Assembly (NCBI RefSeq): GCF_001411555.2 | Contig: NC_049905.1 | Coordinates: 620,001 to 684,000 of the forward strand | Origin: Juglans regia | Lineage: Eukaryota; Streptophyta; Magnoliopsida; Fagales; Juglandaceae | Reading direction: 5' to 3' | Length of the DNA: 64,000 bases | Part shown: positions 18,275-59,300 of the stretch, piece after piece | Numbering within the stretch: position 1 is the first letter of the stretch | Layout of the letters: each line of letters opens with the position of its first letter | Notes under the pieces: generated by a model | What the model was told of the DNA's origin: nothing | Databases searched by the model: none | What the model saw: the letters and a program-made list of their open reading frames with translations, nothing else | Translations under genes and position numbers: made by a program

Positions 18275-20378
<2,104 letters not shown>

Positions 20379-22415
20379 TTTGTTTTTTCCAGAAGAAATA
20401 GGGGAAGCAAGTTGGAAAGGAGTTAAATCCTGTAGTACCTTAGGGTTTTTCCTGAAGAAAAGCAGATCAAGGAGAGGTGTGGGAGAGCCAAGGAAATGAA
20501 GGGCTGAGGCGAGAATTTAAAGGGAAAGTTTTGGTTGGCCAAGTCAACCTATCTTGTTCAGTACGTTGCGAGAATCCGTATGAAGACTGCCAACTTGAGT
20601 GGAAGAGTTTTAGGATTTTCTTTTAGTTCTCCTTTTTAAGCTCTTTTGTTTAACAGAGAAACCGTCACACAAATGCAAGTTGGAGAAAAAAGTTACAAGC
20701 AATAAAGATTTGCTCAGATCTTTGAACTTTTTCTAACAGTTTCAACCACAATCAAACCTTTCCATCAAGACAACCACGTCTCGAGTATTTTTTTTTCACT
20801 CACCAAGTTAAGGATACTTTTCCCTTATTTAGAAAAAGCAGTCCCTGGCCCCTTGACAGAGGTCGTATATTTATGCGCCCATACCCGTGTCTTACTCACA
20901 TGAATGATGATTGTGTTCTTCCTAAATCCATTGCTGTCGGAATGTTAACATAGCGTATCTACTTTCAGATCGGATGACAGAGACTAGGGGACTGATCTTG
21001 ATTCATTTCAGAGGGAAAGAGATGGACCAGTGGGGTATCAAGGGTCCCGATGACACGTGAAATTCAAATGGATGATGTGTGCTTTGTGGGGGAGGGAAGG
21101 GCGATGATTGGTTATGCTGAGATCCTTTTGGGGGCCACAGTAATCGGCTAAGACAAGAGTGAACGTGGGATGCAACAGAAGGAAGCACTGAAAGACTTCT
21201 CTTGTGCCTATCTGCTGCAATAGCTAAATTTGATCGATGCCGCCTTAGTTTCCATTAATCTGACAATTTTGAAGGATTCTCTTGTTTGTATGCTTTTTAT
21301 GTGCAATTTCCACTGAGCTGATGGCCCATCATGATCAGTGGTAAGGTGCTCGCTGATCTTCGATCTACGCTCCATGTTTAGGTTGATCAACGTCGTCTAA
21401 ACCCTTTAAGTATTCGTGATTGGCCTCCCAGCGGATACGAGGGTTGACCACTCTCTCCCCTTATCCATGTAAATATATTACTGATCATCTGGTGCAGATG
21501 TTGCAGATTCTGATCATCTTGTTTACATGTTTTTATGTTCGATTAAATTACTCTAGTGCAACCATCGCTTTTACCACTTTCTGTTGCAAGTTGTGTATGA
21601 GCAACCAATGAATAATCTGCAACTCCAAGAGTGAACATCACCCCTTAAATCATTCTGTCACCTCCTATATGGCTTGCCTCAATGCTTGCATAATTCTTCT
21701 GTTCTTGAAAGTAATTAAGCTCTGTCTTATATATATATATATATTTGCATGTGGTCCTCCTTTGACAGTACTAGTACTGTTTCTTTTCTGTACATTATCG
21801 CCTTCTGCAATATTCTTATCGCATTAGTATTTCATGATTGCCAAAAATGGACGATATACAATATTCTGTATATCATATGGATGGTGGCCTGGGTACTGGA
21901 TATCCTATGCCCTAATTCCCGAGTATACTATCTATAGATTAGAATGAGAAAAATATTGTATTTCCCACTTTGGGCAGGTTAATTAATTAGCTGATTAGAG
22001 GACTTGGTGGTATATTATATTTGAAGTCTCTCTTTTAGGGATTAGGGTTTAGAACTAATATTGTCATTGATCTGACTCAAATGGTGCACGCATGATTGCA
22101 TCCTCTGAAAGAGAGATCAGATCCTCCTTTTGGTTGCTAGAAATTAATAGTAGGCGATCGAAGAAGACAGTACTAGTTCACAGTTATACATACATATATA
22201 TAAATATAATATATTTCTAGTGGATGATCCATTGGATTGAAACAACATAATTCTGGTATAAAGACAGATAACATGATTGAGAACCGCATTGTGGAAGCCA
22301 TGGCCGGTGACCACATCATGATTAATCTCATACAAGTAATCTTTTTCTAGGATTATAAAAACTTTTTAAGATTGTCATACTTTGATGTAGATATTGCACT
22401 CACTTTTCCTCCGGC

Positions 22416-23515: not shown

Positions 23516-24666
23516 TATATAGTTTGATAATTTTTTATTTTGAAAAAAACGATTGTTTGTTTGAGACTTTGAAGCTGCAACTTGCATGAAATGTACGCCA
23601 GATCAATCGATTGCAATTAATTTAATGATTAATCCATTATATATGTAAAATAGTACTGATTCTGTTTGCCAAGAAATACCCAACTTAATTGATCTCTCAA
23701 CTGGATTAGTACTATCCATCCTAATATTTTGCATTATGGTGGTGAGTTTTTCTACTTAATTTTTATGTTTCAATTGATTTGATGTAAAAGTTTCCAGGAA
23801 GAAAAAGGAAAGTTTTCAAGGAAATAGTTCCACTGCAGACAAATTTTGCATTATTTTTGCTCAGGATCTTGGATATTATATAATCGATGGATGGATAGAT
23901 CAGATCTTGATCTCCAAACGTATATATAAGGGCTTTTAGCTAATATATATATTCTTCGATCTTTTTCCCTTTGTATGTATTGTGATCAATATTCTCTCTC
24001 TATCTCTCTCTCTATATATATATATATCGATCATATATATATAAACTCTGCGTACACTTAATTTGTCTCGGCCTGCAAATGCATGAATTCGCTGATATAC
24101 ACTACATTTAATTTTAGTTATCCCTCTGGCTCTGCTCGTATAATTAGTTTATGATCTCACATGAATGCATGCTAGCTGTCACAGCTTCCGTACTTCAAAG
24201 TTCGATTTCTGTCTCCTAAGAAAAGTTAATCACGTTTTTCATGCTTACGTACTGCCTTGTCCCATGACTGATCTAAATATATATATATATATATATTATA
24301 TTATATAGTACTATCCAAATAAAAATAAAAATCTTGAGATATGCCTAAGTACTGATCAATACCCATTGATTGATTGCGATATTAATTTGCAGGAAATGAA
24401 GTAGTACTAATTGTATTATTGTACAATATTCTTCTAGTTATGAATTCTCCTTTTAAGCAAAATGTTTCTCTTTATGCCCCGATTAGCATGCATGCACGCA
24501 CCGCGTTACCATGCATGCATGCATTCATGTGCAGCTCGATCGACTATATATAGGGTGATCAACTTTTTCCAATAATGGTGTAATATTTATCAGCTGCAGG
24601 ACATATATAATATTTGTGGTTGATCTAGCTAGGCGCTAGCTAAGTGCACAAAATGTATGAAATATA

Positions 24667-25922: not shown

Positions 25923-26604
25923 AGAAACGACCAATTCCTACAAGTCTCAACTTAAAGAAAATGTAGGGCGCAGAATGTTCTTGAAGAATAATTTCTATAT
26001 TATGTTCATTAATGGTTGACTCCCATGCATTGACCCATCAAAATCTCTCTCTCTCTCTCTCTCTGTGAAGTCAATTTTGTGGTTTATGTCTTTTGCTTGT
26101 CGGCTGAGTATCAGTTCTTTTCTTCGAGAAAAACCATCATGTGCTGCATTTGGATTGGTTAGGTCTAAGTCCAATATCGACCAATATTGTTGAAAGCTGA
26201 GGGAATACTTTGATATATATATATATATAGTTTAATATGTAGTGGTAGACATTTGATCATTCGCTTACATGTAAGATAGTGGTGCAGTCTATAAATGATG
26301 AATATTAATTGTGGGGATCGATCATGCATTGCTCGCGGCTTTTGAAAATCTAAAGTTTCCATTGCTAGAGCGCTACTGTATACATTAATTAATATTGGTG
26401 AAGGGACAAAACATTCGTAACTTTTTCAATAGTATAGATGGAATGTACAAAGAGTCAAGTCATCTTGTTCAATCCTCTAAGTAAAAAAGGTAGCTCTTCT
26501 GCCAACGCACGTTGTTAATTTAGATCGTGTCGGCCACTGGCTAGTGCAGCCCTCACAAACCTCTATATATGTACGAAATGGTCAACTAAAGATGAAAATA
26601 ATAT

Positions 26605-27488
26605 GGAAAAGCTTCCAGCCGGTCGGGTAAATCCAGTTTTCACACCGATCAATAAAATTTCGCCACATAAGATATACAATAAATCTCTATTTACACTCAC
26701 ATATACTAGATTCTTTCCTTATTTTCCATCTCTTCCCCTCTTCCCTCTCTCCCTCCCCCACCCCGCAGCAACTTCCCCCCGCTCTCTCTAAAATACCTTC
26801 TCTTTCTCTCTCTAAAATACATTCTCCTCACTCTCCTCTGCATGCCGAGCAACTGAACAAGTGAATTCACCATAACTGTGGAAAATGAAATACTTTTGAT
26901 ATTTCTAATAAACTTTCCAGTGATATACATTCCTGAGCATTTACCTCTTCTAGCTTTGGTGGAAATTCTATAATTTCTTCAAGTTGCTTGCAATTATGCA
27001 ATATAAGACTCCTCAATTTAACAAATGTTTTGATGCTTGCTGGAATGCTTACAATATCACTGCCTGATAGATCTAATGGTCCCAGATTGGGAAAGAAATG
27101 AAATGGCCCAAATAAACTTGAATTTGATAGGCTAGAGTTTTTAAAATTCAATTGCAACGACGACAAAAATGCTAATAAGAAAGAATTGTGGCGAAGAGAT
27201 ATGACTGAATTTGTTGGAGGCAACAATGAGAATAATTCTGCACTCGATGAAGCTTCATTTTCCCTTGCAGAGGAGATCGACAATCTTTTGGTTGCTCGAC
27301 TTGCAGATGAGAGCAAAGAGAGTGTATTTTAGATAGAGAGAAGAAGAAGAAGGGAAAGAGATGAAAAATAAGGAAGGAATCTGATGCATTTGAGTGTAGA
27401 TGGAGATTTGTTGTATGTCTTACGTGGCAAAATTCTATTGGCCAGTGTGAAAACTGGATTTTCACCTGACTGGCTAGGAGCTTTTCCC
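26605..27488. mobile_element. Mutator-like (Pack-MULE-type) element carrying an R-gene fragment
   Basis: Long inverted arms bound the element. The left arm runs from GGAAAAGCTTCCAGCC (26605) to about 26855; the right arm is its diverged reverse complement, about 27290-27488. The arms share ATCCAGTTTTCACAC and then a CT-rich stretch ending near a CGAGCAAC word. Flanks AAATAATAT (26596-26604) and AAATAACAT (27489-27497) match at 8 of 9 positions, as expected for the 9-bp duplication of Mutator-like elements. There is no transposase. The roughly 430-base interior is a piece of a TIR-NBS-LRR gene on the minus strand. Confidence 0.78.
26915..27240 (-). pseudogene. Captured TIR-NBS-LRR leucine-rich-repeat fragment
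   Basis: The minus-strand frame reads as LRR sequence of N-like resistance proteins: PNLGPLDLSGSDIVSIPASI, then LRSLILHNCKQLEEIIEFP, then EEVNAQECISLESL. These are the LxxLxLxxC repeats and the GC/EC-ISLE motif typical of plant TNL receptors. There is no TIR or NB-ARC domain, and the frame runs out of LRR similarity near 26915. It lies wholly between the inverted arms of the Mutator-like element, so it is most simply a captured exon piece rather than a resident gene. An open frame starting at 27316 (about 149 codons) extends through it, so a chimeric transcript could still be translated. Confidence 0.75.
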
Positions 27489-27630
27489 AAATAACATATG
27501 AAAAATTAGAATATCTAAAAATAAGACAAAATGAATGGCTATTGCACCTTCGAATGGCCGGCTAGCTAGGGATTCCCGGCCTGCAATGGCATGCATGCAT
27601 GCATGGTAACACTTGAAATAACGACACCTC

Positions 27631-27876
27631 TGTTGATTTTTTTATGAGCACAAAGTGTAACTTGAGAATAGAAACAAATGTAGGAAAAACGAAAACCTTT
27701 CATGAATAAATTGATGAATTTACAATGAGTGAACTAGTGCTTATATACACTTGAAAAAATAATAGAAAAAATAATTGAAATAACGGAATTACAAATTCTG
27801 ATTTGCCTTATCTACTTTTAGCCTTTCCTCCTTTGATTTTAATTCCATTTTGTCAATATGGGAGGTTTTACCCCAA
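27631..27876 (-). repeat. 3' LTR of the copia element
   Basis: It aligns through most of its length with 32256-32476; both copies share gaatttacaatgagtgaact and an ATTCCATTTTGTCAATATG block. This copy has about 18 extra bases near its outer end that the other LTR lacks. Confidence 0.85.
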
Positions 27877-30800
27877 CCCCCCCCCCCCCCCCTCAAGATG
27901 AACATGGATGTTTAGAATGTTCATCTTGCTAAGAGTATGATGAAAAAGCAATGACTCGAGAGGCTTGGTGAAGATGTCTGCTAATTGTAATCTCGAAGGA
28001 ATGTAAAAAAGCTTGATGATGTTTTGCTGCAGCTTTTCCCTAACAAGATGACAATCTATTTGTATGTGCTTTGTTCTCTTATGTTGAACTGGATTAATGG
28101 TAATAGAGAGAGCTGATTTGCTATCAGTGTAGAGCATTGTTGGCTGAGGATGATCAACACTGAGATCTTGTAGAGCATAGAGCAGCCACTACACCTCACA
28201 TGTAGTTGCTGCAAGGGCCTTGTATTCTGCTTCTGCAGATGATCGACTAATTGTAGCTTGTTTATTAGATTTTCATGAGATTAATGAATCTCCTAGAAAG
28301 ATAGCAAAGCCTGTAACACTTCTTCAAGTGTCTATACAACTTGCCACTCACTATCTGAAAAAGCTTTAAGTTTCAAGCCTGAAGAGGAGAAGAACAACCC
28401 TTGGCCTGGTGTTGATTTTAAGTACCTAAGCACTCGAACAACAGCTTGATGATGAGAGACAGCTAGTTTGGCAATAAATTGGCTAAGAACTTGAACAACA
28501 TAGGCAAGATCAAGCCTTGTGATTGTTAAATATAGTAATATGCTAACTAGCCTTTTGTAGCCTCATAAAGATAGGGATCATTTGCAGTGAGCTTGAGGTT
28601 GGATTCCATTGGAAATGCAACTGGCTTGGAACTAATGAGACCCATATCTTGAAGTATGTCTAAAGCATACTTTCTTTGACAGAGTGAAATTCTAGACTTT
28701 GATCTAGCTACTTCCAATCCAAGGAAGTACTTAAGTTGCCCCAAGTCTTTAATAGTGAACTTGTTATGCAAAAAGGTCTTGAGTTTTTGAATTTCAAACA
28801 AATTATCACTAACTAGTAGAACATCATCTATATAAACTAGTAATGTTATGAAGGAAGTAGTAGTTTTCTTGATAAATAGTGAGCAATCAAAATTGCCTTG
28901 AGTGAAGCCATAATCGAGAAAGGTATGAGAAAGCTTTGCAAACCATTGTCGAGAGGCCTGCTTCAGGCCATAAAAACTCTTTAAAAGTTTGCAAACTGTG
29001 TTGGACTGTGTAATACTCAATCCAGAGGCACTTTCATATAAACTTCTTCATATAATTCACCATGTAAAAATACATTGTTTTCATCTAATTGGTGAATGTG
29101 CCAACTTCTAATTGCAACAACAGCCAATAATAGTCGAATGGAAGGGATTTTTACCACTAAAGAGAAAGTATCAAAAAAGTCTAAACTTTCTTGTTGAGTG
29201 TAGCTTTTAGCTACCAATCTTGCTTTGTATCTTTCTATAGTTCTATCAGCATTGTATTTAACTCAAGAAAACCATTTTGCAACCTATGGTTTGTTTATTT
29301 TTAGGCAAAGTAACAAGTTCCCAGGTTTTGTTTAACTCTAAAACATCAAGTTCATTTTTCATAGCAGCTTGTCATTCAAGTAATTTTGCAGCTTATTTGT
29401 ATGTTTTGGGTTCTTGAGAAGTAGAAATATATAGAAGCTAAAAAGGCTTTGTGTGGTACTGAAAGTCTACTAGCAGAAAGAAATGAAGATATATCATAGA
29501 AATTACCTGTGTTAGAGGAGCAACCAGTAGAAGTAGATGGATTGTTTGCATATTAAAACAATGAGGCAGTACCACAATAATAATCCTGCAAAAATTTTGG
29601 TGGTTGTTTAATTTTGGTTGATTTTCTGATATGTGAATTAGGTGAAGTAGTTTGATGATGATAAATGTTTATGTGAGATGAAACTGGTTCATTGGAGGTT
29701 ACTGAAGGTATATTCAGATTAGAAGAGATAAAAAATATTTGTATGAGATGAAATTGGTTCATTGGAGGTTGCTGAAGGTATATTCAGATCAGAATAGATA
29801 GGATCATGTTGAAACTCTGAATGAGGAAACAAAAATGTAGGTGCTTCAGAGTTAAGTGGGAGAGCTTTGAATGGAAAATTGGCTTCATGAAACACAACAT
29901 TTTTGAAGATGAAAATTATGTTTGTGTTCAAGTCCATGAGTTTGTAACCTTTGACATCAGAGGGATATTCTAAAAATAGACATTTAGTCGCCCTTGGATC
30001 AAACTTTTGTCTGTGATTAGTAAGTGTAGATGCAAAACATAAGCAGTCAAAAACTTTTAAATGAGAAAGATTAGGTGGTTTGTGAAATAACATTTCAAAA
30101 GGTGTTTTGTTTTGAAGAAGAGGGGTTGGAATTCGATATATAATATGTGCTGCAGTCAACACACAGTCACTCCAAAAAGTTAGAGGTAAGTTTGCTTGAA
30201 ACATTAGCTTTAGTTGTGTTTAATAAGTGTTGAAGTTTTCTTTCGACAACTCCATTTTGTTGTGGAGTTTCTACACAACTCATTTGATGCAAAATGCTAT
30301 TTTCATTAAAGAATTTTGTAAGAATGAATTTTAAACCATTGTCTATTCTTATGGTTTTGACAGAAGTGTCAAATTGTGTTGTAACCATTTAACAAAAGTT
30401 TGGTAGTAAAAATGAAACTTCAGATTTTGTTCTAAGCATGAAAGTGCATCTTGTAAAATCATCTACTATAGTTAAGAAAAACTTAAAACCACAATATGAA
30501 ACAGTAGCAAAAAGACTCCATATATCACAATGAATCAATTCAAACTCTCTATTCGAAATATGATGTGATATAGGGAAAGAAAGCTTTTTTCTGCTTTGCT
30601 AGTGGATAGATTTCACAGACATTTGTACAATCAAATGTTATTGAATTGTCTATTTGTCTAAGAAAAAGTATTCTAGAATTTGAGACATGACTTAATCTGT
30701 AGTGCCAAAGGTTTAACTGGTTTTGAGTAGTAGCTGAAGCAAAACATGGTGGATAATTAAACTGATATTGATGGCAGGAATGAGCTTTCGAGGAAGGTTG

Positions 30801-31218
30801 AGATAGATGATAAAGTCTTTGTTTCTCAAACGCAATCCCAATCATTTTCTTCATTGATTGGTCTTGTAAAATGCAATAAGAGCCAAAAAAAATATAGACA
30901 AAATTAGAGTCTTTGGTTAGTTTAGAAACAGATAAAAGATTGAATGAGAAACTAGGGACACAAAAAATTGTTTAAATGTAATGTGCTATAGATACTCATT
31001 GTCCAAGTGTATGATGCTGGAACAGTTTGGCCATTAGAAAGATTAATAAAACTTGTAATTGGTGTAGGTGTAGAGGAATATATAAGAGGTGAACAGATCA
31101 TATGATCTGTTGCACCAGTATCTAGGATCCAAGAAAAATTAGAATTTAACTTGGTATAAGCATAATTGCATTGGGTAAAAGTGTTACCAGAAAATTGAGG
31201 GGTAGTGACTAAATTCAC
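27868..31218 (-). pseudogene. copia pol remnant (protease, integrase, RT, RNase H)
   Basis: Pieces occur in order. Protease: SWILDTGATDHM near 31110. Integrase zinc-binding start: LWHYRLSHVSNSRI near 30700. Integrase core end: ETPQQNGVVERK near 30260, then [20 protein letters not shown] near 30160. RT: FYGLKQASRQW and YIDDVLLVSD at about 28980-28800. RNase H: LYTDSKSALSI and HIQIDCHLVREK at 28137-27868. The pieces lie in different frames separated by stops, so the enzyme is dead. Confidence 0.88.
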
Positions 31219-31524
31219 AGCTGTTGTAGATGAATTGGTATTCTGAGTGGATGAATTTGAGTTGGCAAGTGATAGAAGCTTATTAAACTATTCAGCAGTT
31301 AAAGAAAACCTTTGGTTCTCATTACTATTTTGAATATAGACCTCTTTAGTTGAAATGGGTGCATGTGTAGAGGGAGAATTTCTTTTTCCCTTAGGTCCAG
31401 TCCATCCAAAGGGATAGCCATGCAATTGGAAATATTTGTCAATTGTATGACCATTGTAGCCACAATGAGTACAATGCAGTGAGGATTTCTTTGACTTCTC
31501 TTTGGAGAACTTGGTCTGAATATG

Positions 31525-32184
31525 CTAATGAGGTTGAGTAAATTGCTTTGCTAACAAAGCATGTGTTTTAGTGCTTGCAGAATTGGTAAGTTGCCTATGA
31601 CTTTCTTCTTGAAGCAGTAAAGAAAACACTTTAGCCATGCTAGGCAATGAAACAACAAGCAATAATTGAATCCTTACTGAAGCATAGGAATCATTTAAGC
31701 CAACAAGAAACTTCAAGACATAATCTAACTGTTGTCGAAGTAGCAAAAAATTGAACAACTCACAAGTGCAAGAAGCCATTTTTCCGCAGGTACACATTGG
31801 GAATGGTCTATAATTGACATATTCATCCCAAAGAGTCTTAAATGTACTAAAATACTTTGTAATTGATGATGAACCATGCTTTATACAACTTAGAGATTTT
31901 TCAAGATGAAAAACTTTTGGGCCATCACTTCTCAAATATCTAGTTTTTAACTCATTCCAGAGATCTACAACAGATGCAACATAAAGCAAGTTATTTCTTA
32001 TGTCTTTAGAAATGGAATTCATGAGCCAAGAAAGTACCAAGTTGTTGGCATGCAACCAAGCAATGTGATTAACACGCTGATCAGTAGAAGGAGCAATGAT
32101 CGAACCATCAATAAAAGGTACCTTGTTCTTGATAGTCAAGGCTATGGTGATTGATTGACTCCAAACAATGTAGTTGTCTCCCAC
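31525..32184 (-). pseudogene. copia gag remnant
   Basis: A 219-codon open piece has the WSQSITIALTIKNKVPFIDG opening and a WNELKTRY motif typical of plant copia gag (UBN2-type). It is cut before the expected zinc knuckle, which appears to continue in other frames to about 31400. Nonfunctional as read. Confidence 0.85.
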
Positions 32185-32255
32185 AAAAATTTATGAGACA
32201 AGAAAAGTACCAGAATTGTCACTTGGATGTAGATAAAAAGGAGTAGAAGAATCAT

Positions 32256-32476
32256 CTGAGGCATTTATGAGAATAGAAACAAAGGAATGAGAAAATGAAA
32301 ACCTTTCATGAATAATCTAATGAATTTACAATGAGTGAACTAGTGTTTATATACACTTGAAGAAATAACTGAAATAATAGAATTAATTACAAATTCTGAT
32401 TTGCCTTCTCTACTTTTAGCTTTTCCTCATTTGATTTTAATTCCATTTTGTCAATATGAGAGGCTATACTCCAACA
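32256..32476 (-). repeat. 5' LTR of the copia element
   Basis: It matches the 27631-27876 LTR and begins TGTTGGAGTATAGCC on the minus strand. The inner boundary is approximate because the primer-binding site is not clearly recognisable. Confidence 0.75.
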
Positions 32477-32481
32477 ACCTC

Positions 32482-35081
32482 CCTGAGGGATGTACACATG
32501 CAAGAGGGCACACACACACATAGAAACTGATCAGAAGCTTTCGATATTTTCAGACCTCACAATACTCATCATGACAATACCCTGATCACGAGCTTTCAGG
32601 ATAAAGGAACCATGCATGCACAGTACTCATCATGAGCCTTGTAATTACTAATAACTTGAATTGAACGTCGTCGATCGGAGGATAATTTTAATTAACAATA
32701 TCCCATCGGAGTCACCTCTTTCCTTGTGTATATATAACCAAACCGTCGTGAGATCAATGCACGAGTCTTCAAACTATTAATTATGTTTCGGGGTCTAATC
32801 TAGCTAGAATTTAATTCTCGATCTGATCATTAATTTCCCAGTGACAATAAGTTTATGTATACATCTCTAAAGTACTATATCTTTAATGAAACGATATTAA
32901 TTATCATTAAGACCTAAGATTATTCTCGATTCTATAATTAATAGTTATAGATCTAGCATTAATTATTGTTTCTAAAAATTCATACAAACGTACGAAGTTA
33001 CAAACTACGTATTCAGGCCGGACATCATGCTTTACGCGTCTAGATTTTTTTAATTGGCATAAATTCCGGAGAATATTACTGTTTAATTTGGAAAGGGTGT
33101 GTAAGATAAGATGCGAAACAGCTACCTCGACCAGCAACTTTTAATGCGCCTTTGTTCTTGGCAAGCCGAGTCCGTCTTCTTTCTTCTTCTAATTTTTTTT
33201 TTTTCCTCCTTGAGTAGTGTGTTTTTGTGCTTGCATGTCAACTTGTTAATATTGGTGTGTAATATCCAAACCGAGGACAGCCCATAAGAAAGTCTCCCCA
33301 GGTATTGGACACAGCCCATTTTTGTTCGAGTCTTGAGTCTTGACAGTGGATTTGAGCTAATTGGGAAACTTTTGTGGGCATTAGTAGATGTCTCAGGCCC
33401 CAATTATTGAGTTTTTTTTTTCATGGCATTTGTAATCGAATTCTTTTTACATTAACAGTTTAATTGTTAGACTTGAGTTTTGAATTGAAAGATCAGGTTA
33501 AAGGGTTTCCAAGTTCTTGATGTATATTGGAATTGTTGGATATAATATTAAATCAATAATGATTTTGGGATAATGAGTGATTTTACATGACATCAGAGTA
33601 AATATTTTAGCTCACCCATTGAAAGTGAGTCTAGCCCATACATAACGAAGAATGTTAAGATCATGATCTTAAAATTGTCTAATTTAAATTTTTAAGGCCA
33701 GTTGATGATTTTACAATAATACCATCTAGAAAAAAAAAAACTCAAGATTATCTCTATGAGTACTGTATTGTTATATTAAGAAATGGAAGCTAGGGATCTC
33801 AGTGTCCTCTCCTCAATAACGAGGGTCTACGTGCCCATGAATTTACAGGGTTGAGGTCAAATATTGCTATATGCTTTGCTGATATTGGAGGAATGAGGAT
33901 ATGGGGTGGGCTGTATAGTTTTCACTTTCAGATGCGTACATCTTTAGGCTAAACGAAGACTGAGCTTGTAACTTTCAGTTTCTTTCCTTCAGTTGACATG
34001 CGCTTTCTGATCTTAGAAATTACATTGTCTAATTATACTAACAATTGCTTATACATGTCATGACTCTTAACATTTTCTTCAGTTGTAATTTGGGGCCCTT
34101 TTGGGGCCAATAACCCAGTTCCTATTTCTTATTCTTATATTATTATATATGTTCCTCATTAACTTCTCATGCCGTGACTTCTGTGACAGAGTTTAGGTGA
34201 TGTGTGTCCAAAAGTTTGGCGTTTGTCAATGTGCTGCATCAATTAGTAGTATGCAGTATTAAGGCTGTGTACTGAGTACTGCAGTCTGCAGCCAATGAAT
34301 TAGGTCCTGACATCTTTAGAATATGAATTGGCATGTGACTCAGATTCGTGGTTTTCAGTATCCATTATAAATCTGACGCATTTGACATGACAATGGTTTG
34401 ACAAATCTAGAGTTGGAAGAAAGGAAACAATTTGAATTTGCGTTCAAGGTTGGTGTTTCTTGATAAAATTTTGTGCAGAGTGCGTGTAGTATTTAGTAGT
34501 AAGCATTACTTTGGGAGAAGAATGAACTCAGAACAAATGAGAGGTGTGGTCCCTAAAGGCATGAGCTTGTAAAAGGTTTGAATCTAACCTCCTAATATTT
34601 CACTCAATGGGATCAGTATACCTTGGCAGTTCTTGGGGAGATGGGGTTGGTTGGGCACAAGCTGGTGCCATTTTAAGTAACTGGCAATTTGCCAAAAATA
34701 AGTTTTGATCTATGAAACATTCTACTTCAAGCATGTCCTTCACATCACTAACATGGTAGGGTTATTTTTCATAGATATAAACTTTTTCAGGGTTGTTTCT
34801 CGAGTATACTAAACAGTATTCTGGACACAAAATCATGGAGTCTCGTCTCTGCATATTCTGCATAAAACTTCTACTCTGCATACTGTTGCCTATGCCAGTT
34901 GTGAAAAGAGAGACGCATTTGAATAAAATGTGTTGCATTAATGTGAGCAACTGATTTAATGAAGAGGATAAAATAGTTTCCCATTGTTGTCCTACTCAAA
35001 CTACTTGCAATTACATACTATTTTCCTCCTCTCCTACCTGACACACTAGCCAAATTCTCTTCTTGTATGCAACCTCTGAAA
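32482..35081. other. Intergenic DNA
   Basis: No gene is recognisable. A CA run lies at about 32508-32520, with AT-rich DNA elsewhere. The last 150 bases before 35082 should contain the 3' UTR of the minus-strand IQD gene. A segment near 33525-33640 faintly resembles a retrotransposon LTR/primer-binding region but lacks a partner. Confidence 0.5.
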
Positions 35082-37188
35082 TCATCTGAAGCCACCATGT
35101 CGGTCCCAAACCTGCAATGAGCACCCTGAGTCAAAGCTGAGATCTCTAATCGTTCGACTTGATTTTATAGGACCTGGAACGCCTTTCAAGCTTGGAGATC
35201 TTTGCTGGCAACTGCTAGTCTTGCAAATCCTACCACCGCTTGACACTTCAGTATTAATGGAGGATATGAAAGACAGCTTATTCTTACATGGTGAATAGCT
35301 TTCAGAACATGTATCAAAACTCCTTGGCCTTAACTTTGGCGAGCTCATTGATCTTGCTTTAGCTTTCGCAGATTCAGTAGCAGCCATGTAAGTTGGAACA
35401 ACAGGAGAGCTTGAAAATGAATTATGATCTCCTAATGAACACTGCCTCCTATGAAATGATCTTCTGGGAACAATTATCGGAGACTCCAATCCTTCCAAGT
35501 TATTCCGTCCCTGAACATTTCTTAGCTTAGGTTGTCTTCTTCCGTAATCCTCTTGTTGTCTTGGATTTGAAGTTGGAACTGGGTCCAAATCTTCAAGTTC
35601 TCTGCTTTTAACAACTTGGGTATCCACCCATTGATCCAACCAGTACCTCCATCTTCCATTTACCTTGCTTCGTTCTGTTTCCGCTGACTTCTGAAACATT
35701 TTTCAGCTGAAAATTCAGTTACTATAATCTAAGCTTGTGAAATATATAACGTGAAGATCACAAAAGCAAAGGAGCTTACTCGGTGGCTAAATGCATAATC
35801 CTTTATCCGTTCCCTCTTAATCATAGCTTCCTTCTTACTTGAGAACAATGCTTCTTCCTCTTCCTTTGACAGTACGCTGTCATCCCACCTTCTTTGACTG
35901 TTTGAATCTATCTGAAAACCATTTATTTTTCGCCAGCCAAATTAGGTCAGTCTGAATATGCAAAGGAAAGAAGTAATTTATTAATGCTAGAAAATAAAAT
36001 AGTCAAGGATACATGCAGAAAAAGAATGTTTCCATAACGAGAGGAATGGTATATGGATTTTGCAGATCAGTTGTTCACGTTAAAATGAGTCATTGAGTTC
36101 TGCACTCTATACCTTTATTATCTTGTCTTTCCAATCCTGCAGTTGTTTAGTTCCGTCATGATCCCAAGTGCCTTCGGCCATTTCGAATCTTCGTGTGCAA
36201 ACCTGTGACTGAATATTTACCATGGACTGCAAGCACTTGAGGGTAGTTAGAGCTTGGCGCCTTACAGCTCTGCCTCGAATGATAGCTTGAAGCCTCACTA
36301 TTCCCTTCAATGCCCGCAAAGCTTTCCTTGCCTGCAAATCTCTCCCACATAAGTTCATCAAAATCCTGGAAATCCATGAGAATTGAAGAAGAAAAGAAAA
36401 ACAGATCTAAGTTGTGTTCATTTTCTTTCCCGTAATTATGAGTTAAAAAATTGGTGGAGTGACTTAAATTGTGTTCTAGAATCTAGATACCAAAATACTG
36501 ACTTTTACCTTCTGTTAACAGGATTTTCTTTTTTTATTATCATTCTTCTAACAGCAAATCTATAGAGTTTCCAAGACTAGTTCTATGAAATTCAGAGAGA
36601 GAACCTCGAAATATGACCAGTGAATTAGTTAGCAGAAAAGGAGATATGAGGCAAATAAAAAGTTTGTTAAAACTCACAAGGTAGCCCCGAAAGGCAGTCT
36701 GAATTTTGGTGGCAGAAATTTCATGGATCTCCTTCTTATACTGATAGTGGGATGAAGGGGCGTCAGCTCGAAGTTTAATTACTGAAAGCTCTTTTGTTTC
36801 ATATTCAAATTGATGGTCAGATTGAGAGGCGCCTGTCAACCGGACAACCTCAGCAGCAGCAGCTTGAGCAGCTGCAACAGCTGCTTCAGCAGCAGCAGCA
36901 GAGGCAAGAGCCACGGCGAGGGCATGCTTGCTTTGCTCTTCCTCTGCCTCACACAGACTCCTTTCTTTCAAGGAAGTTGGTGCAGTGAGCGAGGGTAACC
37001 TTTTGGTCTTAAACCTTCCAAATATCCATTTCCTTTTCTTCTCCTGATAATATTTATCTCAAATGAGGAACCGAATCGAAGACCAAAACTATCAAAGAAG
37101 CAAATCATTTTACCTTTTCTGGTCTTGACTGCGTTTCTCTGATAAAGAACCTCTTCACTATATTGAACCAGCTCTTCTTCCTAGCCAT
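35082..37188 (-). CDS. IQ67-domain (IQD) calmodulin-binding protein
   Basis: IQD proteins are plant scaffolds that bind calmodulin and associate with microtubules, the plasma membrane or the nucleus. Five exons on the minus strand: 37188-37114, 37043-36678, 36331-36113, 35911-35780 and 35690-35082. They join in frame with GT-AG ends to give about 466 residues. The start MARKKSWFNIVKRFF is the usual IQD N-terminus. An Ala-rich helical stretch lies at about residues 65-85. The IQ67 region spans about residues 133-200, with IQTAFRGYLARKALRALKG, then LQAIIRGRAVRRQA, then LQSMVNIQSQV. It is interrupted at the conserved phase-0 intron between FRGYL and ARKAL. A WLDQWV motif and Ser/Arg-rich tail follow (SPKLRPRS near residue 405), as in the IQD11-14 subgroup. 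No damage seen. The exact orthologue is not assigned. Confidence 0.92.
36583..36621. repeat. 39-base exact direct repeat, copy in IQD intron 2
   Basis: The sequence from ctatgaaattcagaga to atatgaccagt is identical to 37440-37478, 857 bases away and upstream of the IQD start codon. It lies inside the 36332-36677 intron. Confidence 0.9.
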
Positions 37189-38609
37189 TGAAGAATCAAT
37201 TCATCACATTGATCCGAGAAGGTTCTGTAACTACGCTGGTAGAGTGGTTTCTGGTAGTAAATAAATGCATCAGTTAGGAAAAAAGGTTAAAAACTATGCA
37301 AACACTATTGGCTAGTAATGGAGTAGATTAGTCACTGAACTATTTACAACAAACTGAACCATTGTTCCTGTAATTCAGCAGATCAAGCAAGAATCACAGC
37401 TTCAGAAAGTGAGAGTTCCTGGAAACTTGGATACTACTACTATGAAATTCAGAGAGAGAACCTCGAAATATGACCAGTTATTGTTTTTATTTTCTGATAC
37501 AAATTCCCAGTAAAGGACACGCTATGGAGGAAATATCCAGAGTTTTTATAATATCACACACCCAAGGTTTTGTTAAATATATAAGTTGAAAACAACTAAT
37601 ATTGGCATTTGATGTATGTGTTTTGTGCATCTATCCAATCATTCATATTTCGCATGATGGTTTTCTCTGTTCAATTGTGGGCCTTTAAATAAGCGATTCT
37701 TGGGAAAAGGCATAGGCGCTTTGTAGTCATGGAGGCAACCTTTTAAAGACAAATGAGAACTCTTCCCAGCCTCATGGGCCCTCTCCTTTTTTCCATGCTT
37801 CCATTTTCTCTACTGTAACAGACATGTTCATGTGCTGTGGGGAGTGAAATCACGGAACTGTCCTTAGTTGTTTTTGCTCTGAGGGTATAGCATGTTTTGG
37901 CAACCCATCATATATATGGATATTCTCTCTTGCTCCTTGTCAAGTTTGCTTTTTTGGGGTGCCACCATTTCAATTCCTCCCAATCCTTAACCTGCACTTG
38001 ATTCATCTATGTTGATCATTCTGTATGTTTCAAGTAGTGAATACCCAAAAAAAAGGTGACCGGTTGTAATTAACTAGCGTATACTATCAATACCAATTTG
38101 CCAAGATGATCATCTTTGACTTTGCCTTTCACTTTTACTACCTTAGTTGTTATTTTCCATTAGCAGCATATTCAAAAGAATGCTTACCTCTGTAAAGAAA
38201 CATAATACAGGCTGTTCCTAATATCTCTTTAAGTACAGGTAGACTATTCCACACACATGGAGTGGCAGAGAGAGAGAGCTATAATTGAGGGAAAGTGGGG
38301 GGAGTCACAGTGTGCAAGAGATAGGGGATTGTGGAGAAGAAAACAAAGCAGCCTTTTGTTGTGAGAAGTGAAGACAGCTGTGAAAGGGCCCTAAAGAGAT
38401 GAGTTGTCATAATACATTCTCATCTTTTGAAAAAGGGATGAAAATAATTCTCTCTTGCAGTAGTCTTGTGGGTGTCTACTAGGCTAAGGAATGGAGTTTT
38501 ATGGGAAGTGGGAGCTTCCTCCTGTTGTATAGACCACAAGCACAAGTTTAGTATTCCTCTTAAAAAAAACACTCTTTTACCTTCTTGAAAACAGAACTCA
38601 ACATTAATG
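37189..38609. other. Upstream region of the IQD gene and intergenic DNA
   Basis: Presumptive IQD 5' UTR and promoter (minus strand) occupy the first several hundred bases. The rest has no recognisable gene. The DNA around 38260-38420 is purine-rich with short GA runs. Confidence 0.5.
37440..37478. repeat. 39-base exact direct repeat, copy upstream of IQD
   Basis: Identical to 36583-36621. This copy lies about 250 bases upstream of the IQD start codon, in probable leader or promoter DNA. Confidence 0.9.
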
Positions 38610-50000: not shown

Positions 50001-53000
50001 TGAATTACCTCTGTAAAAGGTTCCTTAATATCCTCTCGTTCAACACTGCTTTCCTAAATGATACAAATACCACAATTAGTTATAACAAAAGCAAAAAATA
50101 TCATGCTACAGTAGAAGATTGTATGGAAGAAATGACAACAGTAGCATGTTCAACCATCTTTAACAAGCTCTCTTAATGCATACTGCCACTTGTATACAAA
50201 TCTAAAAAAGCTAAACAATTTCACTCACATAATTAGGAAAGATAACCATATCCACATTTTTAGGCACATCAAGCAGCAGATGCCTCAAGGAATACTCCCG
50301 AGCACCAGCTGGGTGTAGTAACTCATCAGTGTCTAGATGGATTATCCAGTCCATACCAGCATCCTGATGTTTTAATGAGCATGGAAGTACATTAATATTA
50401 TTATTTTTTTGATAAGTTATGTTAATATTATTTTCCAAATGTTAAAATAAAAGCAGAGGTATGAGATACATGAGAATACTATCTTCCATACCCGTGCCAT
50501 TACAATTGCCATCTCCATATTGAGAGATTGCTTCACAAACAGCTCATAATTGCATGGCTTGTAAAAGAAGCTTGAAAGCCATGTCTCATTCCAAATCCGG
50601 CTGATGGTACAATACACAATGTATTAATGATAAATCATCAAAACAAAAAAAATATCTTATAAAGAGATGAAATTAGAAATATGTCCAATACTAGTTTGGA
50701 GAAGCTACACCTACCAAATGCTGGGAGTTAGTTAGATATGGCAATTATGTTCAAATGCTTCTAACAGGGCCTCAGGAGGCGTTTTGGTGATGTGGGATAG
50801 AAAGGCCGTGGAGAAATTGGAATTTATTGGTGAGTATATTGTGGCATGTTCCTTTAGGTATGTTGATGATAATTATCTATGGGCTTTTGTTGGTATTTAT
50901 GGACCGAATTTAGACAGCAGCAAAAGAATGTTATGGGAAGAACTTGCCAGAATTCATAGTTGGTGGAACTTACCATGGTGCATAGGTGGTGACTTTAATG
51001 TCACAAGGTTTCCTATTGAACGATCTAGAGACAGCAGATTACGACCAGCAATGATAGAATTTTTGGAGTGTATTTTTTACTTGGAATTGATGGATATTCC
51101 TCTCATGGGTGGTGCCTATATGTGGTCCAATAATCATACGTGGTCTAGATTGGACAGATTTCTAGTATCACCAAAGTGGGAAACTCAATATTCGGAGCTT
51201 TATCAAAAGAGGCTGTCTCGCCTATGCTCGGATCATTTCCCATTATTACTAGATCGTGGAGGTATTCAGGGAGGGCGTCGGTATTTTAAGTTCGAAAACA
51301 TGTGGCTGAACATTGAAGGTTTTGTGAAAAGGTTTAGGCAATGGTGGGATTCTTATCAGATTGATAGCACCCCTAGTTTCATTTTTGCGGTTAAATTGAA
51401 AGCTCTAAGAAATGATTTAAAGTTATGGAACACTCAATCTTTTGGGGATGTAGGAGACCGTAAAAAGACCATGCTAGAGGAGCTTCAGGAGGTAGTGAGG
51501 ACTTAGGAGGGGAGGGCTCTTTCTATGGAGGAAGCGAAGCATCTCTGAAGGCTGAGCTAAAGGCCGAATTAGAAAGGGTTGTGTTACTGAAGGAGATCTT
51601 TTGGCATAAAAAATCAAGAGCTTTAAAATTGAAAGGAGGGGACCGCATCACAAAGTTCTTTCACAGAGTGGCCAACTCCCATAGGAGAACTAATACCATT
51701 GAGATGCTGAAAATAGACGGAGTGGACTGTATGAAGCCTCCTATAATTAGGGAGCATATTGTGGGATTCTTTGAACACTTACTTTCTGAATAGGTGGGAT
51801 GGCGGCCAAAAGTCGATGGACTAGCCTTTGAGTCCATTGATCCACAACAGGTTTTGTGGCTGGAGTGGTGTTTTGAGGAACTAGAGGTCCACAGCGTGGT
51901 AAGGATAATGGTTAAAGATAAAGCACCTGGCCCAGATGGCTCTTCCATGAGATTTTTTCAATCTTGTTGGGATGTGGTGAAGGTTGATTTAATGAAAGTG
52001 TTCCAAAAATTCTTTTTAGTTCAGAAATTTGAGAAAATCTTCAACGCCATATTTATTGCACTCATTCATAAGAAGATTGGGGCCTCAAAGGTGAAGGATT
52101 ACGGGCCCATTAGTTTTTAGGATTGCAGGTAAGAAAGATGCCTCGGTGGATAATTGCATGGAGTCATTTGGGGAACTAGTCCAATGGAACATTAATTTCA
52201 CTAGAGCTGCCCAATATTGGGAAGTTGGCAGCTTTGAGGAGTTTTTTGCTCTTCTATACACCATGAGGCAGAGAACCCAAAGAGCACATAAGATGTGGTG
52301 GATACCCACAGGTAAAGGTAAATTCTTGGTCTGTTCTTTCTATAAGATGCTTACACAACCACAATTCCCTTGGAGAAAGATATGGAGAAACAAGACGCCT
52401 CCCAAAGCGGCATTTTTTGTATGGACAACAACATTAGGTAAGATCTTGACGACAAATAATCTATGGAGACATAAGGTGATCATAGAAGATTGGTGTTGTA
52501 TGTGTAGGGAAAATGGTGAAAATGTAGATCATTTATTGTTACATTGTGAGGTGGCTGGAATGTTATGGAATGAAGTGTTTAATCGAATGGAGTTAGCTTG
52601 GGTGATGCTTGCCACAGTGACAGAGCTCATAGCCAGATGGATAAATCTACAAGGTTTCCCACAAATCTTAGCGGTGTGGAAAATAGTCCCGATTTATATC
52701 GTGCAGTGCCTATGGAATGAGCAAAATGACCAGACATTTGAAGACAAGGAGCGCTCACTAGAAGAACTTAGATTATTTTTTGTTAGCACTCTTTTTCTTT
52801 GGGCCACAACTATAGATTGTTGTGGCCTCGATTTCCATAATTTTCTTGTTTCTATTACTTCTCTCTAAGTAGGTGTGACCTTTTTTATACATTCTTGTGT
52901 ACTTGGACTATGCCTATTCATATCAATATAATCGTTTACTTATAAAAAAAATGTTCAAGCAAGAAAAAATCCAGAAAGAAAGAGAGAAGGAAAAACAGAT

Positions 53001-56357: not shown

Positions 56358-59300
56358 TTCTAAGGTATATTTTTCTTCTCTGGGTATCCATCTTTCAATT
56401 ATTTTCCCTAAAAATGTGGAATTTAATGTGTTTTTGCGGTGTTTGTTTATGGATGCTCTTACTTTCGTTGGGTTTATTTCAAAGAGAGATTTAGATTTTG
56501 GGTGGTTGCATTTATGACGTGTGGTTGGAAGGAAAGTTGAACTTTTTCCATGCTTGAATTGTCTCTCAGCTTATGCATGATAGGGAAGTTGATAGGTGTC
56601 TGTGTTTTTGCTCCTTTTTTTTGTAAATAGCAATTTACAAGTTTCTATTGTGGTTTTGTTCCCCAAGATCTGGAATTTTCAAATTTCTTGTTTGTTGGTT
56701 AGTTTGATGGTGAGATGTAAATGTTCTCAAGTTATCGGTTTTCTGTTTCTGAATTGATGTTTTTTTTATAAGTAAATAAGTATTATTAATCAACAAATAG
56801 GTATGGCCCAGTACATTAATACAGAAAGTATGCTTTATCTAAGTAGGTGCAATAGAGACAAGAAAATCATGTAGATTCATGCCATTAAAATCAACAGCAA
56901 TGGCCCAAGTACAGAGTTGTAATTGAAAAAGCTTTTAGTTCCTCCAACGATCTCTCCTTGTCTTCAAATGTCCATTCATTCCGCTCTTGCCACAAACACC
57001 ACATGACGCATATGGGGACCATCTTCCACATCTTTAATCTGTTGAATGCCTCTTAGATTTGTCCAGCTAGCCAAAGCTACCACCACTGTCTCGGGCATAA
57101 CCCAAGCCAAGTCTAGTCTACAAAACACTTCATTCCATAACACCCAAGCTGTCTCACAATGTAAAAGGAGATGGCTCGCCCCCTTTTCTACACATTCAAC
57201 ACCAATCTGCGATGATCATCCTCTGTTTCCTCAAATTGTCTGTTGTGAGGATCTTACCCAAGGAAGCTGTCCACATGAAAAAGGCTGCTTTGGGTGGTGC
57301 CTTATGTCTCCATAGCCTTCTCCATGGAAACTGAATATTGGGCTTTTGTGTGAGGGACTTGTAGTAAGAGCGAACCGAGAAAGAACCTTTACCTGCTGGT
57401 GTCGACCACAACATATCTTTCTGCTGGTTGCTCGGTTCTATAGAGTATAAGAGGCTGAAAAATTCTTCAAAGCTGCTGATTTTCCAATATCACTCTACTA
57501 TCATCACCATGACTTCAACCACTGAAACATCTTTGGCACTTGCAAACCTTAGAAGTGAAGGAAATACATCCTGTAGAGCACTGTTACAACACCAGATATC
57601 ACTCTAGAATTTAATTTTGGAACCGTCACCCACAAGAAATCTTGTGTCTCTAGTGAATACCTCCCGTCCTCTTCTTATGTGTTTCCACAACCCCACTTCG
57701 TAAGCCCCTCTCACTTCTTTAGTACACCATCCTCCCCATAATCCTCCATATTTGCTCTCAATCACCAGTTTACATAAGGCTTCTGGTTCCTTATTGTATC
57801 TCTACAACCATTTGCCAAGTAGCGTCCGATTAAAAATTCTCATATTTCTAATACCCAAACCACCATTGGAGATTGGGTGACATACCATCTCCCACTTGAC
57901 GAGGTGAAGTTTGAATTCCTCCCCCACTCCACTCCACTCCACAAGAAGTCACGTTGAAGTTTCTTAATTAGAACCGCCACACTTGCAGTGATAGGGAATA
58001 GAGACAAAAATTAGGTAGGTAATTTAGATAATGTATTCTTAATCAAGGTAATCCTACCGCCTTTTGACAGGTACATTCTCTTCCATACTGCTAGTCTCCG
58101 CTCAACTTTCTCAATCATTGTCTCCCATAACATAGACGCTCTCGAGGCAGCCCCTAATGGGAGTCCAAGATAAGTCATAGGGAGAGAGGCAATCTTACAC
58201 ACCAGAGTGTTGGCCAACCGTCTTATGTGATAAACATCTCCAATTGGCACCATCTTTGATTTGTCTAAGTTCACCTTCAACCCGGACACCGCTTCAAAAC
58301 AAAGGAGAAGAGCCTTCAGTGCTCGAACTTTGTTCAGATCTGCCTTACAAAATATAAGGGGATATGCCGCTTCTGAATTGAAGTTTTATGGGTATGATGG
58401 CACGGATGGCTTTCAGATGATATGCCGTGGATATTTATTAATTAGCGTCAACAATGCACGTTCAATCAATTGATATCTGGTGTTTATTTATCCTGCTTGG
58501 TTATGAGTTAGATATGTATGCTGTATAGCTGGTGTTTCAATGTAATTTTAGTGTATTATACATCATTTTTCGTTGGAACTCCTTTGGTTCATTATTTCAA
58601 TTAATTTTTATGCATTTAGAATGAGGGATTAGTGGTTACGGTAAGTAGGTCTTGAATGCACATTTTGTTTATGGAATCATCAACTGTCACATATTTTCCA
58701 TGCTTTGTTTACCCTGCAATGTTGCTGTGGTTCACTGGTTTTGACTCCTATTGAAGCTGGCAGGATGTGTAGTTAGATGTATAATTCTTGGTTACTTGCT
58801 GATTTCTTGTGACTTGTGAAGCTATTATGATTATTAACTATGCTTTACCTTTGGTTTTCTTGGTGGTTTTTGCGCACTCTAGAAGTTAGTAGTATTTGGG
58901 TCATTTACTGAAGATGAAACCAGGTCCTTGCTGCTAAAGAAGTCGTCTAAGAATGCTGAAAAGTCGGTGGAGAAGAAAGAATTGCAATTTGGTTCAGTGA
59001 ATTTTGTGACTGTAAAAGTTTCGGGTGGCCTTCATGGTGAATCGAGCATAGAGTTGGATTCTCCGAAAGGATCGAATAGTGTGCTTTCCTCGAATACGAT
59101 TAAGAAGGATGATGAAGTGCAGAGTGTTAAAATAGTAAATACACATTTACCGGGAGTGCTTAGAACTCCAAAAGAAAATGGAAGCCTCGATGGTTCCACC
59201 CATGGTTCTCATATTAATGGTGCAGAAGAAGTGAACCAAGATAATATCGGTTCATCCTCGTTGCTTATATCCCAGAATCAATATGGTCCCTCACTTCCCA

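Follow-up and report, generated by a model that had tools for sequence, protein, structure and literature searches.

Introduction

The locus described here raises the question of whether a short piece of DNA, in which long inverted arms enclose a segment resembling the LRR of a disease-resistance receptor, is a transposable element carrying part of a host gene, and whether the captured part still has a role. The window, that is, the whole 64,000-nucleotide stretch of Juglans regia DNA that was analysed, had been the subject of a preliminary description, in which the element was read as a Pack-MULE whose passenger might give rise to a decoy protein or to RNAs acting against the parental genes.

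Structure and surroundings of the element

The element occupies positions 26605-27488 of the window (884 bp) and its arms, which make up about half of this length, are seen directly in the DNA. The outer arm block at 26605-26751 aligned with the reverse complement of 27336-27487 with 81.6% identity over 152 columns, gaps included (124 of 147 positions identical with gaps excluded), and the alignment score was 157, compared with a maximum of 32 among 200 random segment pairs from the window. An inner block of 49 bp, in which 26805-26853 pairs with 27291-27339 at 84%, brings the left arm to 249 bp and the right arm to 198 bp, in agreement with the 200-250 bases previously proposed. The surplus of the left arm consists of about 53 CT-rich bases, and a 21-bp direct repeat has one copy in this CT-rich stretch and the other where the inner block begins.

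The arms are bordered by the sequences AAATAATAT and AAATAACAT, which are alike at eight of nine positions and flush with the ends if the element stops at 27488. Such a match between flanks was obtained in 0.065% of 20,000 draws of random site pairs from the 21-34 kb region (a chance of 0.00065), and in 0.26% (0.0026) when one base of slop was allowed at each end. The near-matching 9-bp flanks of the preliminary description are confirmed. With the joined flanks as query, no empty-site-like sequence was found in the window; the matches were the locus itself, 39 columns of the other LTR of a neighbouring copia element (the query extended into the near LTR) and 20 bases at 24505-24524 within CATG-type repeats (E 1.4e-4).

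Pack-MULEs are recognized by terminal inverted repeats (TIRs) of at least 100 bp and at least 80% identity, a target-site duplication (TSD) of 9-11 bp at the ends, a captured fragment of a non-transposon host gene and the lack of a transposase. Here, the arms lie above both TIR limits, the 9-bp duplication is flush with the ends and has one mismatch, and the interior holds a resistance-gene-type LRR. No match to a transposase family was found in the two minus-strand element frames scanned, the other frames being read as translations only; both the Pack-MULE-type structure and the absence of transposase claimed earlier are thus upheld within this scope. Comparison of the arm sequences with the 64,000-nt window revealed no further copies and, with a single copy known in the window, a repeated MULE TIR family to which these arms would belong is putative and unproven.

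The gene content of the window is that of a plant. The element is flanked on one side by a cytokinin-dehydrogenase gene (minus strand, pieces within 18275-20516) and on the other by a gene with a DUF4005 domain (minus strand, 35082-35702), which we take to be IQD-like; a further frame of the latter gene at 36540-37058 gave no Pfam match. The copia element starts 174 bp to the right of the element, and its LTRs of about 220 bp (27663-27885 and 32268-32483) show 89% ungapped identity, corresponding to a K2P distance of 0.116. Other repeats were also observed in the window: a segment of about 70 bp duplicated in tandem (88-89% identity between the units) at 29657-29800, within the copia element; a 46-bp direct repeat of 96% identity at 36576-36621 and 37433-37478, in and near the DUF4005 gene; and two related segments in inverted orientation at 52214-52856 and 56851-57490 (69% identity over 654 columns), the first in a zf-RVT frame, which are probably two LINE-type remnants lying in opposite orientation. 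Rfam gave no match at gathering scores, ARAGORN with the bacterial code found no tRNA, and none of the 13 stretches that fitted a viral-contig pattern was confirmed. The coordinates of the features are collected in Table 1.

Table 1. Features of the element and the adjacent retrotransposon, in window coordinates
Feature	Position	Strand	Remarks
Left 9-bp target-site duplication, AAATAATAT	26596-26604		8/9 match to right flank
Left terminal inverted repeat	26605-26853	+	Outer part 26605-26751, inner part 26805-26853, CT-rich extra between
Interior between arms	26854-27290		Limits given by the end of arm similarity
Open frame, 153 codons	26867-27328, stop 26867-26869	-	From ORF list; spans inner right arm and LRR; without ATG
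LRR fragment	about 26900-27184	-	Span of Pfam LRR_13, Roq1 and 7crb matches
Right terminal inverted repeat	27291-27488	-	From arm alignment
Right 9-bp target-site duplication, AAATAACAT	27489-27497		8/9 match to left flank
Broken copia LTR retrotransposon	27663-32483	-	gag, pre-integrase, SH3-like and RT matches in separate frames

Identity of the captured fragment

The similarity of the interior to LRRs is directly observed, and its identification as an LRR is firm on the basis of sequence comparison. In a search against PDB sequences the LRR frame matched 7crb, a chain named 'NAD+ hydrolase' in the search output and which we take to be RPP1, at E 5.8e-10, and Roq1 at E 8.3e-9, these whole-sequence values being sums over several weak repeats. 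Taken one by one, even the best stretches, at chain residues 977-1034 and 956-1047, had i-E values of only 0.021 and 0.024, and stretch 723-785 of 7crb scored 16.5 bits, close to the best value of 18.1. The non-NLR LRR protein 4fcg also matched the frame in this search (E 8.5e-7), and weaker matches were obtained with a chain named ADR2 (6.3e-4), At5g04720 (0.084) and NRC3 (0.1). LRR_13 (RPS4B-like) was the best Pfam match, with E 2.6e-6 and 27.7 bits, below the curated cut-off of 30.1.

The best PDB matches are TNL receptors, as expected from the TIR-NBS-LRR-like interior of the preliminary description, and a TIR-NBS-LRR (TNL) gene is the likely donor; this class assignment is less secure, since the E-values sum over repeats and the single stretches are weak. 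If the best stretches are right, they suggest that the fragment derives from near the end of the donor LRR region, presumably just ahead of the C-terminal domain. None of the 103 candidate protein homologues reached E <= 0.001 in a comparison in which proteins longer than 1.75 times the query, full-length TNLs included, were ineligible. TIR and NB-ARC domains were absent from the 21 ORFs scanned among the 40 listed for the window, and, as regards a functional TNL, the locus offers LRR matches only, in a frame without ATG.

Open frame and age of the element

The LRR match falls in the second part of a frame that is open throughout positions 26870-27328, a length attained by 5 of 1000 dinucleotide-shuffled versions of the element, and whose first 12 codons or so are given by the right arm (similarity limit 27291). 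The 149-codon frame previously reported to run from the right arm through the LRR was confirmed as an open frame, of 153 codons; its start was not, as the listed one is a TTG and direct inspection reveals no methionine codon anywhere in the frame. The minus-strand ATGs located before the LRR core, at 27389 (44 codons) and 27258 (28 codons), are both in other frames. A script that accepted every GT-AG pair with a separation of 60 bases or more in a bounded stretch returned 10 joins reaching the LRR frame, four from the ATG at 27389 and six from that at 27258, all of them bare matches.

The arms differ by a K2P distance of 0.186 (196 sites, 27 transitions, 4 transversions, 3 gaps), and within the outer block the differences comprise 22 transitions and 1 transversion. 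Over both blocks, the skew towards transitions (27:4) is significantly stronger than in the adjacent copia LTRs (11:12; Fisher p 0.0026). Such transition-rich differences may fit past cytosine methylation, a reading which is only suggestive; by context, the changed share of cytosines in the arms was 5/11 for CG, 3/12 for CHG and 19/65 for CHH, with four unclassified sites omitted and no significance test applied.

Survival of the frame, both open and free of indels, was simulated under neutrality with an indel rate drawn from the three gaps, so that the figures are rough: at the divergence of the arms, the whole frame survived with a probability of 0.012 and the 98 LRR codons with one of 0.064, and at a quarter of the arm age these values rose to 0.32 and 0.50, respectively. 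The copia element served as a yardstick: of its 153-, 120- and 112-codon placements, 7%, 16% and 19%, respectively, were open in some frame, as an upper bound, and the 7% for 153 codons speaks somewhat against pure neutrality. By both the simulation and the copia yardstick, the frame is better preserved than a plain neutral guess would have it, which points either to constraint of some kind or to a capture that took place later than the arm divergence implies. The two arms of a MULE need not start out identical, so that such a later capture would account for the well-kept frame as well as selection would. The open frame was rejected as proof of function, given that its survival ranges from 0.012 to 0.50 according to the stretch and the assumed capture age, and that the copia element, the LTRs of which are less diverged than the arms, still has three pieces that are open over 153 codons or more (221, 166 and 166).

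Predicted hairpin

RNA folding predicted 175 arm-to-arm pairs on the plus strand and 177 on the minus strand, with minimum free energies of -325.6 and -331.5 kcal/mol, respectively, and z -14.4 for the minus-strand fold against 20 shuffles. In the predicted fold the LRR piece is single-copy, not inverted and enclosed by the arms, and a hairpin alone would therefore yield small RNAs from the arms; a read-through transcript would send the arms into silencing first. A strand preference of the hairpin was dismissed, since 12 (plus strand) and 15 (minus strand) of the arm transitions are compatible with G-U pairing, without clear bias.

Discussion

We consider it very probable that the locus holds an old non-autonomous Mutator-like element of the Pack-MULE type, with a captured resistance-gene LRR, which moved in trans and has since decayed, the LRR being a passenger. 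According to this hypothesis, the captured segment would measure roughly 300-360 bp and would come from the LRR-coding part of a resistance gene, most probably one of the TIR-NBS-LRR class. The element would have been inserted into an AT-rich intergenic site between the cytokinin-dehydrogenase and the presumed IQD-like genes. A MULE transposase, probably supplied in trans, would have acted on the long arms, and transposition would have generated the 9-bp duplication. After insertion the element would have decayed, leaving the LRR piece as a passenger that presumably has no present function. The points against this explanation are the mismatched base in the duplication, the single G by which the right end exceeds the left one, the lack of a second arm copy in the window, a TNL class drawn from summed weak repeats when the non-NLR protein 4fcg matches as well, and an open frame kept better than expected.

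The same lack of a second copy, together with the large share of the element taken up by the arms and the absence of a match to a transposase or TIR family, would also suit a foldback or other inverted-repeat element rather than a MULE. We regard such an origin as quite unlikely, because the ends are of the GGGAAAA type, a form common among MULEs, and because a 9-bp duplication fits MULEs, compared with the 8 nt of hAT and 5 nt of CACTA elements stated in the available text of PMC8903248. It has also to be asked whether the Pack-MULE-type element is transcribed, so that small RNAs from its hairpin would bring about silencing of sequences related to the arms and, as the silencing spreads, of the parental TNL genes as well. 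This would agree with the arm-to-arm folding of both strands, with the transition skew that may reflect past methylation, and with the review PMC13317346, the available part of which describes captured sequences in maize, including Pack-MULEs, as possible siRNA reservoirs against donor genes. For rice, the accessible portion of PMC4858842 reports that the TIRs and interiors of such elements carry 24-nt small RNAs and that their methylation changes. We nevertheless judge silencing of this kind unlikely at this locus: the methylation reading is only suggestive, and the LRR piece, of which there is one copy, predicted to lie in the loop between the paired arms, would not itself enter the hairpin's siRNAs, which leaves the control of TNL genes by antisense or small RNAs, put forward earlier, unsupported.

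The decoy protein of the preliminary description fares no better. Translation of the LRR frame into a small LRR protein with a decoy or adaptor role would draw on its 153 open codons, reached by few shuffles, on an openness exceeding the neutral-decay prediction at the arm divergence, and on the ten joins that lead into it. We rejected it as highly improbable, because an ATG is lacking from the frame, the joins are no more than GT-AG matches and hence hypothetical, and the LRR domain is present only in part. A joint reading deserves hardly any credence: a promoter in the right arm and a spliced leader, starting at the ATG at 27389 with 29 residues that are hydrophobic in appearance, would give a short chimeric LRR protein, or else small RNAs would act against parental TNLs, with the frame kept by selection.

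The Pack-MULE interpretation describes a gene-fragment capture that is real yet ordinary for plants, and decoy or regulatory roles are guesses. It adds one more case of a DNA transposon that bears a copy of part of a plant immune-receptor gene. On its own it leaves current views as they are, and it would gain weight if RNAs produced from it, either a transcript or small RNAs, proved to act on parental TNL genes.

In the literature searched, which may not cover all in print, no Pack-MULE with a TNL LRR piece was described. The closest known systems are the Pack-MULEs of rice, tomato, Arabidopsis and maize, which share with this element long TIRs, a 9-11 bp TSD, a host-gene fragment and a size of about 0.9 kb (PMC3310237, available text). 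In the accessible part of that work, the limits for a tomato MULE library were arms of at least 100 bp, 80% identity and a 9-11 bp duplication, and a 944-bp tomato Pack-MULE with the TSD TTTTAAATT and 87% TIR identity is tabulated; the arms described here, in contrast, are near the lower identity limit and belong to an element known singly, with a putative TIR family. More than 3000 Pack-MULEs have been annotated in rice, and two TSD mismatches were tolerated, according to the available text of PMC8903248. The Pack-CACTA and Pack-hAT elements treated in the same text resemble the present one in carrying gene fragments captured between TIRs, and differ from it in having TSDs of 5 and 8 nt, respectively, instead of 9. 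Mobile copies of resistance-gene segments have also been produced by LTR elements, for instance the soybean element mentioned in the accessible portion of PMC3544724; these belong to another transposon class, whereas the LRR piece of this element lies between inverted arms and not between LTRs.
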